Source: Darksidea phi (Eukaryota; Ascomycota; Dothideomycetes; Pleosporales; Lentitheciaceae). From it: DNA of 64,000 nucleotides. Where the stretch lies: assembly GCA_030770425.1 (NCBI GenBank), contig JASJFT010000024.1, positions 186,001 to 250,000 of the forward strand. The letters run 5' to 3'. The translations under genes and the position numbers were made by a program. Shown here one piece after another: positions 7,742 through 58,067 of this stretch (positions within the stretch are counted from its first letter, which is position 1; each line of letters opens with the position of its first letter). A model generated the notes under the pieces. That model ran no database searches. It was given only the letters and a program-made list of their open reading frames with translations, and had not been told where the DNA came from.

Positions 7742-8596
7742 ATGGGTCGACTAGATGGCAAAGTTGCCATCGTGACGGGTAATGAGAACATCTAGGTATC
7801 CACACCACGACTCTGACATTGGAATAGGCGCAGGGTCAGGCTTCGGTGCCGGTATATCGCAAGCGTTTGCTACCGAAGGCGCCAAAGTACTAGTCTGCGA
7901 CATCAATCAAACTGGCGGTGACGCAACAGTCCAATCCAACCCTTCAGCCATGGCCTTCCACAAGATGGACGTGACCAAACCGGCTGACTGGAAAGCAACC
8001 ATCGACGTTGCACTCGAAAAATTCGGACGATGCGATATCCTCGTGAACAACGCAGGGACGACTTACAAGAACAAACCAACGATTGACGTGACGGAGGAAG
8101 AGTTCCAGAAGACATTTGACGTCAATGTTAAGGGAGTTTATCTAGGCTGTAACGCCTGGACTCGACAAGCCATTGCCAGGAAAGAAGGAGGTGTCATTAT
8201 AAACATTTCGAGTGTCGGTGCCACGCGACCTAGGCCAGGCTTGGTGTGGTATAACGCATCCAAAGGAGCCGTTTCCAACGTACGCTTTGCCTCAAAGCGG
8301 CACCAATGGCTTTGCTAATTCCTAAGTAGGCGACAAAAGGTCTTGCTGCCGAACTTGGACCCCATCAGATCCGAGTAGTCAGCATCAACCCCCTTGTTAC
8401 ATCTACCGGCCTTTTCTCACACTTCACTGGTGTCGAAGACACGCCAGAGAACCGAGAGAAGTTTGTCTTTAACGTTCCAATGGGTCGAATAGGCGAGGTG
8501 GACGACGTCTCCTCGGCAGCCGTCTTTCTTGCCAGTAGCGAGGCCAAATTTATCACCGGAGTGAATCTAGAAGTTGATGGCGGGCGATGCATCTAG
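7742..8596 (+). CDS. short-chain dehydrogenase/reductase (classical SDR)
   Basis: Three exons, 7742-7778, 7828-8279 and 8330-8596, give 251 aa, the usual classical SDR length; introns are 49 and 50 nt. The protein starts MGRLDGKVAIVTG and the first splice completes the cofactor motif TGAGSGFG. NNAG follows near residue 88, the catalytic Ser is in NISSVGA, and the catalytic Tyr/Lys pair is YNASK. The C-terminus EVDGGRCI is the usual FabG-like ending. It should be a soluble NAD(P)(H)-dependent oxidoreductase acting on an alcohol or ketone; DINQ after the second strand (an acidic residue) favours NAD(H). Substrate cannot be told from sequence. No pathway neighbours point to a secondary-metabolite cluster. 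Confidence 0.93.
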
Positions 8597-13686: not shown

Positions 13687-16494
13687 ATGGAGACGCCCGA
13701 TGGCCCATGGGCCTCAACCCGCACGCCGAGCTCACGTCCAACTTCCCGGAAATCGGCCCGGTCGTCTCGTTCGGCTCGCTCGCATCGTTCTAGTAGGACA
13801 TCAGAAGTTACTCCGCTGCTGGCAAGGGAGGATAGAAGCGACAGTGAAGAATATGCAGAGCGGACGCCGGCAACCACGTCGTTGTTGCGATCATTAAGCG
13901 ATGGGTCCACATCGAGTGGCAAGAAACCATTTTGGAAGAAGAGATGGCCGAGCTTACTGGCGCTTTCCATATTATTCATCGCTGTGGCTTTCATATTGAT
14001 CGGGTTTCTGGCGACTGAAGGCGTGGAAGAGTATGCCATGCAGGCTGCGAACTTCAAGCCCACGAAGCTTTCATTGGACTCGCTGACCGATCATGGAGTA
14101 AAAATTCAAGTGGAAGGAGACTTTACGATGGATGCATCCAAGGTCAAGAAGCAGAGTGTGCGCAATCTTGGTCGCTTCGGGATGTGGATCGCAAGAGAAG
14201 TAGAAAGTGGGCCTACCAATGTCGAGGTTTATCTACCCGAATATGGCAACGTTCGGGTTGGAACGGCAAAAATTCCGGGTATCAAAGTCAACGTCCGCAA
14301 TGGACACACGACACACGTATCATTCTTCGCCCATCTGGAGCCAGGGTCATTTGACGGCATTCGTAACATCGCTCATGACTGGATGAAGGGGCACTTGGGT
14401 CAGATTCGCATCAAAGGCAAAGCTGACGTCCCTCTGAGATCTGGGATCATCCACCTTGGCTCGCAGACTGTGGAGGAATCTTTGGTATTTCAGGGTAAGT
14501 GCTATGCTGAGGACGTGGTTTTCCTGATCAACATGCTAACGGCCCCTCGCATTATAGGGCACAACCTTCCTACGCTCCCCCAGTACAACATTACAAGGCT
14601 CAATATCCGAGAAGCCAGGAATGGACACCGAGGCATGGGCGCCGATGTTTCCGTTATGGTGATGAATGATTTTCCTATCCAGCTCACAGTTCCTCCTATT
14701 GCTGTTGACGTACTGGTTGATGGTTGTCCGCTATCCGATAAGCAAAAGCACATCAAAGTTGGCACTGCCGAAACTGCTAGGTTGAACATTACGCCCAATA
14801 CTGACCTCGAAGTCAATGTCACCGGAAGAGTGGAGAAGCTGCCAGACTCGCTGATCGAAGTGTGCCCAGATTCCGCCAAGTCACCACTGGATGCTTTTCT
14901 GGGAGATTACATGCAAGGTCAAGATGCCACCATCTATATTAACTGCTGCACATTTCCAGACCCAGAAACGCCAAAGTGGGCGGAAGACCTCCTTCAAGAC
15001 ATCACTGTTCCAGTTCCATTCGCCGGACGTGATATGGGAAATCTCATCAAGAACTTCTCATTGGCCGACGTTCACTTCCATCTTCCTGAGCCTTTCGCCG
15101 ATCCAGGTACTCCCGCAGCATCACCGAAGATATCTGCCACTGTCAAAGTCGATATTAGCTTGCCACATGAGATGAACTTCCCTGTGGACGTCGACGGTGT
15201 CAAAGCCGATGCCATTATTTACTACAAGAAGGAAAAGCTTGGTAGACTTGACCTCAGCAAATGGCAAAAGGCAAACTCAACCAGGGTTGATGCGCACAAT
15301 GACGAGGGACCATCGCTGCTCGTTCAGTCCGACATCAAAAAGGCTCCAATCGAGATTCTTGACGACGACCTCTTCAGTGAAGTGGTGCAGGCCTTGATAT
15401 TCGGAAGCAAGCCAGTCATGATGGAGGTCAGGGCGAATGTCAGCGTCAAAGTGGACACGCCCATGGGTGACTTTGCGGTGCGAGAGATTCCCACAGAGGG
15501 AGTCGTCCCGGTCAAACGTTCGTGACCCAGTTCGTGACCCAACGAACCATTCCGATTGCAATTGCTAACGTAATTGGTTCAGCGATTGGAAGTGGCAAAG
15601 GTGACAAAAGCATCGGCTCCCTATCACCCAAAGTCGGTAACCTGTCCATTATCGATACATCACCCACATCCCTCACTCTACAAGTCCATGTGAATTTCAC
15701 CAACCCTACGAATTACTCAGCTACAGTTCCCTATTTTAACATCAATGTTCTCGTCAACGGTACTGTTCTTGGACAAGGTGTGGTGAACGACGCACTCGTA
15801 CATCCTGGAAACAACACTAATCTTGTCGTAAACATCGTCTGGGACCCTTTCACCAATAGCGGCGAAGAAGGCAAACTGGTTGGGAAAGAGCTACTCTCTC
15901 AGTACATTTCTGGTAAGTTTCATCATATCTGTTGTTGCGTCCGCTGATGCAAAAGGCTACAACACATCCTTTACCCTCCAAGCCCACAACGGCTCTGTCC
16001 CCGCCCAGCCAGCGCTTGGCGCCCTTCTTTCCAACTTCCCTATCACCCTCCCGGCACCCAGTCTTTCCGGGCCTAAAAAGCCTGATGATGGCGACGATGA
16101 CCCAGATGGCGATGATAAAGAACACGAACGGCCACACTTCATCCGCGAAGCTACAATGCACATCATCTCCTCCACCGCAATTTTCACCCTCGCCTCCCCT
16201 TTCAGCACCACAACGATGTATATCACCGAACTGAACGCCACCGCCTTTCATGAAGGCCACACCGCAGGCAAGATCATCTCCGATCTCCCCTTTGCGGTGC
16301 CGCCAGGTGTATCCCAGTCTCCGCCCCTCCCAGTAGACTGGAGCATTGGTAGCATAGGGTATGATGCGATCAAGAAGGCGCTTGGAGGGACACTGAAGTT
16401 GTCCACATATGCGGACGTAGGGGTTAGAGTTGGGCAATGGCGTCAGCAGATTTGGTTTCAAGGTGGGCAGATTGGGGCGCATGTAAGGCTGTAG
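13687..16494 (+). CDS. DUF3712 type II membrane protein (AsmA/LEA-like repeats)
   Basis: Four exons, 13687-14494, 14558-15517, 15583-15912 and 15956-16494, give 878 aa in phase. The N-terminal 80 residues are Ser/Arg-rich and cytosolic, with an acidic dileucine-type signal (EVTPLL, residues 40-45) as used for vacuolar sorting. One transmembrane helix lies at about 90-108 (LLALSILFIAVAFILIGF). The long C-terminal part contains repeated beta-rich LEA/DUF3712-type modules, e.g. TSLTLQVHVNFTNPTNYSATVPYFNINVLVN (read here in two pieces) and a similar earlier module. Family knowledge: fungal DUF3712 proteins are endomembrane or vacuolar, of unknown function. I chose the ATG at 13687 because the upstream in-frame codon is TTG. 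The first intron is a multiple of three with no stop, so retention would add 21 residues. Confidence 0.85.
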
Positions 16495-22136: not shown

Positions 22137-25077
22137 CCGTGCCTGATACTATACCCCGATTCTTAATAAGGCTACCCTAATTAAGGATAGGGGCGCCCTT
22201 ATTAAGGATGAGGGCACGGTACCATAGTGCTAGCGTCATTCTACGGAGTGTTTGTTATTCAACTTTCGACATAATCACCTTGGACGTGGCACAAAAGCTT
22301 TCAGCTCTTATGACTGGATGCCAATCAGCAAGTCAAAATCATGGCCGAGGCTCAATATGAGGCTCGGTAACGAAAGGTATACACGCGAAGATGGCAATAG
22401 TTTCCCGGTAGGTTTGGCTGAACACTTCGCTTTGAGGTATAGCTGCGAGCTCCCCAGTAGTTCTTCTATCTCAGAGCTGAGCGCCTAGACTCGATAGTGA
22501 GAAGCAATTTGTATATAGGATGTTTCACGCGCCCAAGAAACAACGCATCACTGCATTCAATGTATTCATGCCCATCTTCGTTAGCTTTGGGTCCATGATT
22601 TACGAGTGCACTGCTTTCATTATCAGAATTGCTCTGATATATCAACCGCCAAAACTTGTACGATGTAAAGTGACTCTTGTCGGCGCTGGACAGCCTCATT
22701 CATCACATACTTTAATATCGGCAAGTGAAGCGATGCCACCGAACTCAACAACTAACAGTCTTTTCTACGCAGATGGTATCATTTGTATACTCCTGCTTCG
22801 CATCAGCCCAGAAATGGGGTATTGCTACCGTAGGTAGCCAGATCTGAACAATGGCGCTGTGCTTGCGGGTATTGCAGAGTGCTACCTTGACAATCTTCCG
22901 GTGCCGCTCTTGCTGTATACATATTCGAGTACCTGTCTCATCCAGGCTCGTTGTCGGAGCTGCAGCGTTCATATATTCTGTCGATACTCCAGGAAGTTAA
23001 GCATACTAGCGTCAACTAATCTATCACACTAGATCTATTATATATTACCGGATAGGCTTTGGTAGGCTTTGGGTTAAGTTTTTGCTTGTCGCAACATAAA
23101 GCTAGATAGATATAGCTGAACAAAATAAATAACGATAGAATAGGCTGCATGTATATGAGCAAGTCCGGCGCGCATATGGACGGGGAATTACCTATGCATA
23201 AAACGAGGTTGGTTTCAGCGTCTACTTCTATAGGACTGACAAGCGATAAAATCGTAAAGCAACTCACAAAGCCAATCAAAGTAGGCGGCTAAAATACATA
23301 GCAACTAACACTCTCTCTCTTATGTGTCTAGCCATTCGGACTACGTAGTTTATACTTGATCCCAAATCGCTTCGCTAGCTCATTATGAAATAACGCACAG
23401 ATGGAACTAGCTCCGGTTAATGCGTCCCTTTTCAACCACGCGTGAGCGCTTTGTGGAGCCGTCCCGAGGGTTCTCATCTCTTCACCGTCTTTCTTGTGGA
23501 GGTAATTCTGTGTCACATCGGGATGTCTTCAGCTTCCCTCCCGAACCTAGTGGCACAACCGTCAAATGTCTCACAGACCGTTGCCACGGCATCGTCGTAT
23601 TCCGCATATAGTGCCCACCACTGGAACCCACTGGTACAAAGAGCCATTATCGAGGCCGTCCACCTTCGCGCGAGGGATTTTGATGCTACTCCAACAGCAC
23701 CTTTGATCTGGCATGGCTACCATTCTTCAAGTCCTCGCAACGGGAGCGAGGACATGTTAAAGACTGCGAACGCTTCTAGAGCATAGCGCCTTACACGACA
23801 CATCTTCACCTGCATCTGCATCATCATAGATGGTGGAACTGAACCATTCGGAAATCCGCTATACGAGAACCGGGAATCGGATGATGAACCTCGCAACGCG
23901 CCTGCCCTTGCTTTGCCTCGCAGCCACCGCCCAAGACATGGGCGACCACCTGTTTGTTCCCTAATGGCACAACTTTTGGGTAATCTCGCTATCGACATTT
24001 AGGATGCTTGTACGGAGTAGCCTTCTTTACACGGGCGACAGAATCCAGGCCTCCTTTAGCTAAGATTTCGGCGAGCGACCACGTGTTGCACCGAGGTAGG
24101 GGGCCTAGATTAGTGAGGAAAGACCGTGTTGCGGCACTGAGGAATGTGGAGATCGGATGGAGGGATGTTTGAGGGCTTTGGGCAGTATGAATGTACTCAA
24201 GTCTCAGTACGTGAGCGTGGCGATTTGAAGGAGAGCTACGCAACCTGGACATGGCACCTTATCGCAAGAAGGAATGTCCAGCCTCTTGTTCCACCTCATC
24301 AAAGATTGTCAAATTACAACCTAAACACCTACAGGTCTTCAACCAATCGGCCTTCCTAACCGGTCCCGTATTCGCAAGATGACACTTGCCCCGGGAAGCT
24401 AAAGAAGCGAAATCACTACGGCCGTGCCAGAACAACGTTGAGCCAGGGAGTCGATCCTGCCGTGGAGATTGGTAGCCTTGAGGTCGACGACTGAACCCAC
24501 CGTAGGAGCGGGGCTAGTCTGTGCGTCGCATTGCCGCTGGATGGATTTACGGGCCATTCAGGAGCGGAAGTAGAAGCGGAGATGAGGTAGCGCAAGAAGA
24601 GAAAGGTGGGTCACAACGTGTAATTGCAAATCTTGTTTTGAATTGATCTGTGACCGAGCCTCATGAGGCAAGCTGAACAACAAACTCCGCGGCCATGCTC
24701 CCATGCCTGATGGTTCGTTTTCTAAAACAAAAGGAAAGCAAAAAGTGGAACAAGAAGAAGTGAAAGCTCTAAACCAAATCCAATCATGATCATCACAATC
24801 CAGTTCCGCTGTTGTGACCCATCAAGCATGAGAGAGAAAAAGTATGGCGCAAGAAAAGACAGCATATATTGTCAGGGAAAACATTCGTACAAAGCCCATA
24901 CTGCCTTTCCACCATTCATCCCCAGCCATTGATTTAACATCCCATCGAGGGCAGCAACAGCGGAACCCGAGCCAAACAGAGTCAACGCTCAAAAAGAAAG
25001 CTATGCGCAAGAGACCAAAGGCCGCCTCACAAAGATGCACAGAAGAGAAGAATTTTCAGCTGCCTTCAATCAAGCGC
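22137..25077. other. gene-poor region, no intact gene
   Basis: No complete gene is supported across nearly 3 kb. Around 23440-24000 and, on the minus strand, 24250-23990 there are longer open stretches without recognisable domains, possibly gene remnants. The last 240 bases are the 3' flank of the Thr/Pro-rich surface protein. Confidence 0.35.
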
Positions 25078-48456: not shown

Positions 48457-49274
48457 CTCATGAAGGGTGGATAGATCCATCAGCACATGTACTTGCGTTG
48501 CACCAGAAGGTGCATCTTCTCTGTTACCGTGTAATGTGCATGCACTCATCTTGCGGCATGAACTTCTTCGTCTTGTTAGTTCTACCTCCCCTGTTTTCTG
48601 AACCCGGCACCGCCCACCTAGGATGAAGCATTAAACATCTGGCTCGCTCGACCAACATCAGAGAGTGCATGTACATGGATCCTCACCGGTTCACAGAGCC
48701 CAACATTGAAAGTCAGCCTCACGGGCTACACGTAACCGCCAAGCGCCACCAGACTTTATTCGTCTTTTAGTCGGAAAGATCGGAAAGCTTACCGGGAATC
48801 CGGTGAGCACGAGACCGGATACCAAGGCGTACTGCGGTCTGTGGCACTTTGGCGGGGCGGGGCTTATGTCATAGGAGGAGCGGAATCGTTCACGCATTGG
48901 CAGAGGAACCGTGCACGGTCGTTTGTGGGTGCCGTAGGAGCCGTTTCTGCCGTGGAGGTTGTAAGCGTAATCCTTGGCTGGGTTGAAGGTTGAAGTACTT
49001 AAAGAGAACAATTTCCTCGCAAGAGGGACGCCGTATCGAAAAGCAATCTTGAGCAAGACGGCATCTTTCAGACAACGCCGCTCCAGTATTCGGACTCTAT
49101 ATCCCACTACCTCGAACGTCGACAACCACCACCACCACCACCACCACCTTGCCTCTCTCTTATCTATAGAGGTTGGCCCGAACAGCACGTCCACGACCCC
49201 TCAACTACCAACAACCCCTGCGGCCTGGCTCAATCAGGTCGCAATCCCCAAACATCCACTCGAATCACTAGGCG
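48457..49274. other. intergenic, no gene seen
   Basis: 3' flank of the aconitase-family gene and 5' flank of the small conserved protein. It contains a (CAC)n run at about 49125-49148 that would read as poly-His or poly-Pro/Thr but is not in a supported gene. Confidence 0.45.
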
Positions 49275-56338: not shown

Positions 56339-57384
56339 ATTGGAGAGTGGTGAGAAGCGGACGAGAAGCGACAGAGAGGGAGTGAATCAGCGATTCGTGA
56401 GCAGCTGGGCGACTGATGAGGAGGAATGCTCGACGGATAACTGCGGCGTCTTTCGGAGAGCGTCAGTTTCCAGCAAAAGACGGGGGGTTCAGCAGACGTC
56501 TTCGGAAGGCGGTCAACAAGGTGCACACGTTTTATGTGCCTTGGGGATGGCGTGAGACGGCCATGGCACTAACCATTCATAAAGCCACAGGAACGATTGG
56601 TAAAAGGGGCATGCTGGCTAGAGTGCGATCATGCAGTTCAACCACGCACAAAAGCATGGTTGCAGGAGCTTGGACCGCCCAACAGCGGCTGGCTAAGCTG
56701 CTTCGAGACTAACGGCCAATCGTCGTGCTCCACTTGGGATGGCCGGTCCCTCTTCCCCGCACTTTTAATACAGAATTGATACCACCGCGTTGCACCACCC
56801 TCGAGGAACTGTAGACCCGACGTGCTTCATCTTCGTTGTGTCCTCCGCGCGTACAGTGACAAGCACCGCTTCAAGTCTTCGGCGGGTTGACTGCATCCCT
56901 TGGCGACTTCGTTCGAAAGTCGGTGTGTCGGAGGCTGACGATGCACATCTGTTGCGAGGTCGGATACCGAGTGCTCGTGCGTCTGTGCCTGAACATCGGC
57001 TCTCCGCCTAGACATGCCGATGCATAAGCGGCCGCGACGTTCCGCTGTTTGCTGCGTGATGTTTGGGGTTCGGGGTACGAGGCTTTGCTGATAAGAGGAT
57101 GTGGATAGACATCATGAGTTATAGTTGGAATAGATTTATGGCACGAACGTTTACAAAAAAAGAGACTCTCACTATGCCAATCCAAGCAAATAGCCTTAGT
57201 TGGGGGGTGCGGGCAGTGCCACGTGACTGCGCAATCTAATTGCTCGAATTAGTAATTCCTCCTTAGTGCACAGTCGTCGGTTAGACCTTCTGAAAGCGTA
57301 CGGTAATTGACTGCCCTACTTTTACTTTGTGGTATATAAATTTACTTTTGTAAAATTTCTTAAAAATTCTCAGATACTGAGTTC
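56339..57384. other. intergenic, repeat fragment near right end
   Basis: No gene supported. 57139-57190 is a repeat fragment. The last 80 bases before the tRNA are AT-rich (tatataaatttac), a common setting upstream of fungal Pol III genes. Confidence 0.45.
57139..57190 (+). repeat. dispersed repeat, copy D (partial, diverged)
   Basis: gcacgaacgtttacaaaa then gagactctcactatgccaat matches the right half of copy B (53790-53829) in the same orientation. It lies about 200 bp upstream of the tRNA-Pro gene. Confidence 0.65.
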
Positions 57385-57536
57385 GGCCTGGTGGTCTAGT
57401 GGTATGATTGTCGCTTCGGGTTCATCGCCTGGATGTTTAACATCTATAATGTGACAGGCCCCGGGTTCGAGTAAGTAAAAAGTGATATGCTCAATCCCAG
57501 TGTAAAATTGACATAATGCAGATCCCGGCCAGGCCC
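57385..57536 (+). tRNA. tRNA-Pro(CGG) with anticodon-loop intron and a GT-AG insert in the T-loop
   Basis: Acceptor strand GGCCTGG (57385-57391) pairs 7/7 with CCAGGCC (57529-57535); the discriminator is C. The D-arm gtctagtggtatgat is as in yeast tRNA-Pro. Anticodon stem GTCGC pairs with GTGAC (57451-57455, one G-U), with anticodon CGG in the loop TTCGGG. A 29-nt canonical intron sits after position 37 (57421-57449). The T-stem is CCGGG / CCCGG, but the T-loop is interrupted after TTCGA by 57471-57521, a 51-nt segment GTAAGT ... TTGAC ... GCAG. Without both inserts the T-loop is TTCGAAT and the tRNA is 72 nt, the normal length. The insert splits the B box. Functional status is unknown. Confidence 0.88.
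57471..57521 (+). other. spliceosomal-intron-like insert in the tRNA T-loop
   Basis: It begins with a perfect donor (GTAAGT), has a branch-like TTGAC with its A at 57511, ten bases before the terminal AG, and ends GCAG. Size and signals match the protein-gene introns of this window. Exact removal gives CCGGG-TTCGAAT-CCCGG. Confidence 0.75.
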
Positions 57537-57556
57537 ATTCTTTCTTTTTCTTTTTG

Positions 57557-57567
57557 TTTTTTTTTTT
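57557..57567 (+). terminator. Pol III terminator (T run)
   Basis: A run of eleven T follows shorter T5 runs starting nine bases after the tRNA 3' end, the usual Pol III stop signal. Confidence 0.75.
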
Positions 57568-58067
57568 CCTATTGTAGTGCCGGTTACAATGGGAGAAGAC
57601 TCTGAGCGTCTAGTTTGGGTTTGGGCCATGACATGGCTGGCAAGCAGATATTGGAGATTGTAGCCACCCAGGAGCGGGGCCCATACTCCCTCGAACATCA
57701 AGCTCCAAAGGCCCAAGTATCTATCATAAATGATTATCTTCGTTTCAGTTTGCTAGCAACTAGAGGCATAGCTGGACGCATGACATTCCTTCGCGAGCCA
57801 TGAAACACTTCCCTTCTCGTTGTGCATTGTTCGCCAGGTTGCAACGAGGTGCAACGCTTTTAGGTGCGTAATCTAATACGCAGATGCAACTTGACTCTCA
57901 TTGGATACCTGGATCAACCGCAGTTTATGAGTAATACATTGACACCCTACGGGTGCAGCAGCAGCATTACTTAAGTGTCTCACACACCTTCTCTATACAT
58001 CATTATCTGCACTACGTATGCAACTGTCGTAGCATAGGGAGGCTCGAATAGATGTGTAGAAGGTCCA
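57568..58067. other. intergenic, no gene seen
   Basis: Between the tRNA terminator and the end of the acyl-CoA oxidase remnant. Nothing supported. Confidence 0.4.

Follow-up and report, generated by a model that had tools for sequence, protein, structure and literature searches.

Structure of the tRNA-Pro(CGG) gene

The window analysed here (the whole stretch of 64,000 nucleotides, G000:C157:186001-250000, to which coordinates refer unless a contig is named) carries a tRNA-Pro(CGG) gene that is interrupted twice, once at the canonical 37/38 site and once in the T loop. The gene, its parts and the surrounding signals are listed below.

57333..57340, + strand: TATA-like element TATATAAA, 52 nt upstream of the tRNA, recognised by sequence reading
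57385..57536, + strand: tRNA-Pro(CGG) gene, interrupted twice
57385..57420, + strand: exon 1, with the acceptor 5' strand, D arm, anticodon stem 5' strand and CGG anticodon
57392..57402, + strand: A box TGGTCTAGTGG, uninterrupted, at the start of the 5'-half pattern match
57421..57449, + strand: canonical tRNA intron of 29 nt at 37/38, border ambiguous by one T
57450..57470, + strand: exon 2, with the anticodon stem 3' strand, variable loop, T stem 5' strand and TTCGA
57463..57473, + strand: B-box-like GGGTTCGAGTA, in which the end of exon 2 is joined by the three opening bases of the intron, matrix score 10.7
57471..57521, + strand: GT-AG insert of exactly 51 nt in the T loop at tRNA position 58/59, proposed spliceosomal intron
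57471..57476, + strand: predicted 5' splice site GTAAGT
57508..57512, + strand: branch-site-like TTGAC, whose A (57511) lies 10 nt from the 3' end of the intron
57518..57521, + strand: predicted 3' splice site GCAG
57522..57536, + strand: exon 3, with the remainder of the T arm, the acceptor 3' strand and the discriminator
57545..57567, + strand: T runs resembling a Pol III terminator

Re-measurement of the gene confirmed the cloverleaf described in the initial annotation, with a 7/7 acceptor stem, a CGG anticodon and a canonical intron of 29 nt. The anticodon stem is likewise complete (5/5, with one G-U pair), and the T stem reaches 5/5 after removal of the second insert. This second insert had been described as 51 nt in the T loop carrying GTAAGT, TTGAC and GCAG, a description with which both the coordinates and the behaviour of ARAGORN after its removal agree; its borders are fixed, without any sliding. 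In the unaltered sequence no tRNA was found by ARAGORN or Rfam, and a purpose-built tRNA model gave a weak match of 18.9 bits with a wrong T arm. When the 51 nt were taken out, ARAGORN reported a tRNA with a 29-nt intron, but misplaced the intron phase and labelled the gene Ser. Removal of both inserts yielded tRNA-Pro(CGG). The annotation had also stated that the T-loop insert splits the B box. The box is indeed damaged but it is not destroyed, as the first intron bases complete it to GGTTCGAGTAA, which matches 9 of the 11 positions of the B-box consensus GGTTCGANTCC.

GT-AG inserts in other tRNA genes

The genome (51,351,393 bases, or 51.35 Mb, in 477 contigs) was searched for tRNA genes with the Rfam model RF00005, with sequence patterns and with tRNA BLAST. 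In all, 48 nuclear tRNA genes were recovered, of which 13 contain a GT-AG insert and 35 do not. The interrupted genes are the following, with the tRNA position of the insert and the search that recovered each gene.

Pro-CGG (window): 58/59
Pro-TGG-1 (L055): 58/59, 5'-half pattern
Pro-TGG-2 (L056): 53/54, 5'-half pattern
Gln-TTG (L051): 53/54, RF00005 search
Gln-CTG (L114): 54/55, D-arm pattern
Two Ala-AGC genes (L052, L061): 52/53 in Ala-AGC-2 and 58/59 in Ala-AGC-3, RF00005 search
Initiator Met, iMet-2 (L058, G000:C312, about 8292-8416, - strand): 54/55, RF00005 search
Lys-TTT (L059): 28/29, RF00005 search
Val-CAC (L063): 20/21, tRNA BLAST
Gly-CCC (L079): 58/59, pattern with splice-site letters
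Trp-CCA (L123): 45/46, tRNA 5'-half/D-arm pattern
Ile-AAT-3 (L136): 25/26, tRNA 5'-half/D-arm pattern

Nine of the insertion sites lie at positions 52-59, and 20/21, 25/26, 28/29 and 45/46 are each used in one gene. The RF00005 search returned 59 rows (30 plain, 5 with an insert, 18 mitochondrial-looking and 6 degenerate or odd) and scored 63 of 1735 candidates, hence it was not exhaustive. The 35 uninterrupted genes are the 30 plain rows together with Pro-AGG, Val-TAC, two Phe and one Ile gene from other searches; two Ile-like genes counted among them, L035 and L137, have odd T arms. The total of 48 leaves out the 18 mitochondrial-looking rows, which lie on contigs C304, C417 and C382, as well as seven odd tRNA-like loci (L027, L049, L050, L057, L060, L062 and L148). 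The recovered set lacks genes for Glu, Tyr and elongator Met as well as for some further isoacceptors, so that both 13 and 48 are lower bounds.

Of the 12 genes found in addition to that of the window, 11 were recovered by queries devoid of splice-site letters (RF00005, 5'-half/D-arm patterns, tRNA BLAST). Selection bias does attach to Gly-CCC, whose query held a splice site, and to the window gene, which had been flagged by a reader that saw the splice motifs. A pattern with a splice site behind TTCGA gave 47 matches versus 77 in the backward control, that is, no enrichment, and inspection of all 47 identified three tRNA genes. The Pro 5'-half pattern (up to 3 mismatches) detected four genes genome-wide (CGG and AGG once each, TGG twice); the search for other tRNA-Pro(CGG) genes, which the initial annotation had advised, thus disclosed no intact copy at this stringency. 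The D-arm pattern (up to 2 mismatches) hit 12 places including two Gln genes, both interrupted, and a 28-nt Trp pattern (up to 3 mismatches) hit a single place in the genome, also interrupted. All recovered genes are interrupted for Gln (2), Pro-TGG (2), Trp, Lys-TTT, Gly-CCC, Val-CAC and Pro-CGG (1 each), and uninterrupted paralogues are present for iMet, Ala-AGC and Ile-AAT.

The remaining pattern searches gave few further genes. The search that yielded Trp opened 21 new places, comprising this one inserted tRNA gene and an odd tandem (L148); another gave 11 places, two of them Phe genes and both without a GT-AG insert; the search that yielded Ile gave three places, two of them tRNA genes, one Ile with an insert and one without. 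The 22 additional pattern places inspected last held no new inserted tRNA gene. The tRNA-Pro patterns matched nothing in the viral contigs collection and a single contig (L141) in the genome contigs collection, where the Pro gene is intronless. The U6 snRNA gene is uninterrupted and the 5S genes above the cut-off are of normal length in 22/22 cases, although interrupted ones could escape that search, indicating that only some Pol III genes are affected.

Anatomy of the inserts and comparison with mRNA introns

All 13 inserts start with GT[A/G]NG and end with AG, as U2-type introns do, and all contain a branch-site-like YTRAY motif with its A 9-12 nt from the 3' end. They are 47-55 nt long (mean 51.2, s.d. 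2.0, n=13). Among 2,000,000 random 51-mers of insert composition, 43 combined GTRNG, AG and the branch motif; this frequency, together with the same anatomy in 12 other tRNA genes, argues that the Pro-CGG insert is not a product of chance. The borders are fixed in 6/13 inserts and can slide by 1-4 nt in the other seven, for which they were set by choosing GT-AG. A canonical intron (12-30 nt) is also present in eight of the 13 genes. Excision of the inserts leaves standard pairing at 256 of the 260 stem positions (235 Watson-Crick and 21 G-U) and four mismatches, compared to 194/260 for the unspliced genes with the same parser. Lys, Val, Trp and Ile each have one of the four broken pairs, that of Ile-AAT-3 being in the T stem. 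Since an excision displaced by 1 or 2 nt yields nearly the same pair count, the count supports excision and not the exact border. No insert contains a run of four or more T (0/13), a trend that shuffling did not render significant (p 0.07 and 0.26).

For comparison, mRNA introns were sought in the window. Among 79 frame-restoring candidate pairs, 11 had a branch motif 8-16 nt from the end and eight were kept, the dropped ones being 8244-8329 (86 nt, sharing its acceptor with a kept intron), 22987-23029 (43 nt) and 48618-48722 (105 nt). The eight kept introns measure 47-56 nt, with the branch A 8-15 nt before the end. The intron at 14495-14557 (63 nt, A at 18) is supported by alignment with homologous proteins, and a further alignment gap near 15925-15952 suggests one more. 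For the protein encoded at 13687-15522, Massariosphaeria phaeospora provides the best match by E-value (72% identity), and a shorter protein matches at 87% over 54% of the query; the named top matches are mostly from Pleosporales. Without frame picking, strict GT-branch-AG candidates of 45-69 nt numbered 23 on the real strands versus 7 in reversed sequence, and among candidates of 40-75 nt a branch distance of 10-12 occurred 11 times on the real strands versus none in the reversed ones. The tRNA inserts (47-55 nt, branch A at 9-12) therefore resemble the nine mRNA introns of the window (47-63 nt, A at 8-15 and in one case 18) and have the length and branch spacing of U2-type introns.

The inserts as probable spliceosomal introns

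The initial annotation had suggested an intron of spliceosomal type, and its presence in 13 of 48 recovered nuclear tRNA genes supports this proposal. Sequence anatomy places the inserts among spliceosomal introns, in a type of host gene that is new for them, the closest precedents being the introns of rDNA and U6. The 51-nt insert of Pro-CGG is very probably a U2-type spliceosomal intron of a functional tRNA gene, one of at least 13, that would be removed by the spliceosome. Other explanations were weighed against this reading.

Introns of mRNA type could instead have landed in tRNA genes and killed them, the work being done by intact copies. We regard this as unlikely, although several observations go in its direction: iMet, Ala-AGC and Ile-AAT do have uninterrupted paralogues, Ile-AAT-3 has a mismatch in its T stem, and a very recent gain would likewise leave the exons intact. 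In a review, insertions away from 37/38 are described as rare or as pseudogenes in eukaryotes, where they are usually taken as the latter, with exceptions in red algae and nucleomorphs (PMC4090602). Against this explanation stand the 13 genes with 256/260 standard stem pairs, which are not the decayed cloverleaves expected of pseudogenes, and the fact that every recovered gene for Gln, Pro-TGG, Trp, Lys-TTT, Gly-CCC, Val-CAC and Pro-CGG is interrupted. The interruption of both Gln genes and of the single Trp gene in particular argues against simple pseudogenes. The possibility raised in the annotation that the gene is newly dead is consequently weakened, its exons and those of the other genes being intact, Gln and Trp being found only in interrupted form and no intact Pro-CGG having been found.

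The annotation had also envisaged an introner-like element. Elements of this kind are on record in fungi (van der Burgt 2012, as cited in PMC11889510), and many insertions of similar length in a single genome would suit copies of one mobile intron-making family. This origin is very improbable for the present inserts. The longest match between any two of the 13 is 9 identical nt (E 0.07), so that a single family was rejected for lack of likeness beyond this length, and the search of the 51 nt against the genome, which the annotation had recommended, revealed no further copy of the window insert at E <= 0.001 (the one insert searched genome-wide). Moreover, the borders are unable to slide in 6/13 inserts, which would leave no target duplication in these, and can slide by 1-4 nt in 7/13.

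Still less credible are ectopic tRNA introns cut by the tRNA splicing endonuclease, as in Cyanidioschyzon and archaea. Some positions would suit them, since 20/21, 25/26, 45/46 and 53/54 appear among the non-canonical archaeal sites given in PMC4090602. However, no bulge-helix-bulge (BHB) was found at the junctions of the 13 inserts: 18 of 52 pairs of the central 4-bp helix can form, versus 19.5 expected by chance, and no insert reaches 4/4 (the best, Ala-AGC-2, has 3). With junction pairing at chance level BHB introns were rejected; they would also leave the GT-AG ends and the branch-site consensus unexplained, and the sites differ from the usual eukaryotic 37/38. For the window insert, a self-splicing group I or II intron was discarded because Rfam models gave no match in 57000-58000 at E <= 5 and 51 nt is too short, and an assembly artefact of one locus because 12 further genes carry inserts.

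Relation to known introns

Introns of mRNA type occur in fungal U6 snRNA genes, which are similar to the present case in that a Pol III gene hosts a spliceosomal intron; U6, however, is part of the spliceosome active site, unlike tRNA, and here it is uninterrupted. In ascomycetes, spliceosomal introns have long been on record in 18S genes (PMC11889510). Those of nuclear rDNA (Cubero 2000 and Bhattacharya 2000, cited there; a lichen intron in PMC8527467) are also mRNA-type introns in a structural RNA that is not made by Pol II, and the 57 bp of the lichen intron are similar to the size of the tRNA inserts. The rDNA host is nevertheless a Pol I rRNA, whereas the hosts described here are many different Pol III tRNA genes, eight of which have a canonical intron as well. 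The ectopic introns of Cyanidioschyzon merolae and of nucleomorphs, as presented in PMC3978253 and PMC4090602, similarly affect D, anticodon and T arms and can exceed one per tRNA gene. Those of C. merolae are tied to a BHB and the tRNA endonuclease, and the tRNA introns of Guillardia measure 3-24 nt, in contrast to the GT-AG inserts of 47-55 nt without BHB found here. The canonical eukaryotic introns at 37/38 are shared by 8/13 genes; the second insert differs from them in position, length and sequence.

The tRNAscan-SE 2.0 paper gives a single intron as the limit for a eukaryotic tRNA gene (PMC8450103). Among the matches listed in the open-licence literature (titles and abstract openings), none describes nuclear tRNA genes with spliceosomal introns. 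Gene finders would have a blind spot for such genes: ARAGORN missed six of 12 unspliced inserted genes and gave a wrong intron, end or identity for the six others.

In textbooks, mRNA splicing is the domain of Pol II and the spliceosome, and tRNA splicing, kept apart from it, that of Pol III with an endonuclease and a ligase. If the present reading is true, one fungus routinely crosses this divide, essential RNAs of some 75 nt are open to invasion by spliceosomal introns, and thirteen natural genes would make the spliceosomal splicing of Pol III transcripts directly testable.

Proposed maturation of the interrupted tRNAs

The interrupted genes, including every Gln and Trp gene found, suggest that the spliceosome helps to make tRNAs. 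We infer, from junctions with chance-level BHB pairing and the presence of all spliceosome signals, that transcription by Pol III is followed by spliceosomal removal. Pol III would transcribe the gene in full, directed by the TATA-like element upstream, by the A box and by a B box that is still present in most of the genes. The GT-AG intron would be removed by the spliceosome in the nucleus, allowing the T arm to fold, the tRNA endonuclease and ligase would take out the 37/38 intron, and RNase P and tRNase Z would trim the ends. Removal of the GT-AG intron would come before tRNase Z and export factors require the T arm. Yeast was able to splice a lichen spliceosomal intron out of a Pol I rRNA (PMC8527467), which indicates that Pol II is not strictly required.

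On this evidence the spliceosome is probably an obligatory machine of tRNA maturation, serving about a quarter of the recovered genes and all Gln and Trp genes found, and eight genes would need two unrelated splicing machineries working on a single pre-tRNA. Unless intact copies exist, Gln and Trp tRNAs would depend entirely on the spliceosomal pathway; such copies could have been missed, the recovered tRNA set being incomplete, or be absent from the assembly. As to their origin, we speculate that the introns entered abundant tRNA by reverse splicing and reached the genes by recombination, a route that would fit inserts that are unrelated in sequence and six of which leave no room for a target duplication.

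Pol III signals and other tRNA-like loci

A run of at least four T starts within 25 nt downstream of all 13 inserted genes, and TATA[AT] lies upstream in 12/12, a count that covers the inserted genes other than Trp. A B-box-like site scoring at least 6.6, the value of the weakest intact box, is kept in 12/13 precursors, a retention that carries little weight because insertion at 53/54 or 58/59 automatically preserves most of the box. The Pro-CGG score of 10.7 compares with 10.2 for random best-of-110 hits at the 99% level. That of Pro-TGG-1 (6.9) says little, as random sequence reaches 6.8 at the 95% level, and the Gln-CTG precursor has no good site (-0.1). The intron of iMet-2 itself holds a strong B-box-like sequence, CTGTTCGATTC (13.6), which beats the native iMet box (6.6). 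In minimum-energy folds of the unspliced precursors the insert pairs with exon sequence, and such predicted mixed folds could hinder splicing. The U6 gene (L128, C179:23388-23487) has a TATA upstream and a B-box-like GGTTCGATTTC downstream.

Several other loci resemble tRNA genes. L035 and L137 are Ile-AAT-like and have GTGCGACC or CTGCGACC in place of the expected TTCGACC. L074 and L084 are related to each other; both have box sequences like those of tRNA genes, a run of GTTCGAGTAAGTG and a hairpin with T runs behind it. They matched no Rfam model at E <= 1 and are possibly a Pol III-like RNA gene or a SINE. The tandem L148 (C224:299064-299244) is tRNA-like, its first repeat scoring 31.3 bits and its second, cut off, 9.7. 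Three similar elements (L050, L057 and L062, on C187, C425 and C158) have a DNA-encoded 3' CCA or CCCCCA and may be a tRNA-derived repeat. Finally, L060 (C29:73791), tRNA-like with a GCC anticodon and possibly a decayed gene, carries an internal duplication, the sole insertion seen that is not of the GT-AG type.
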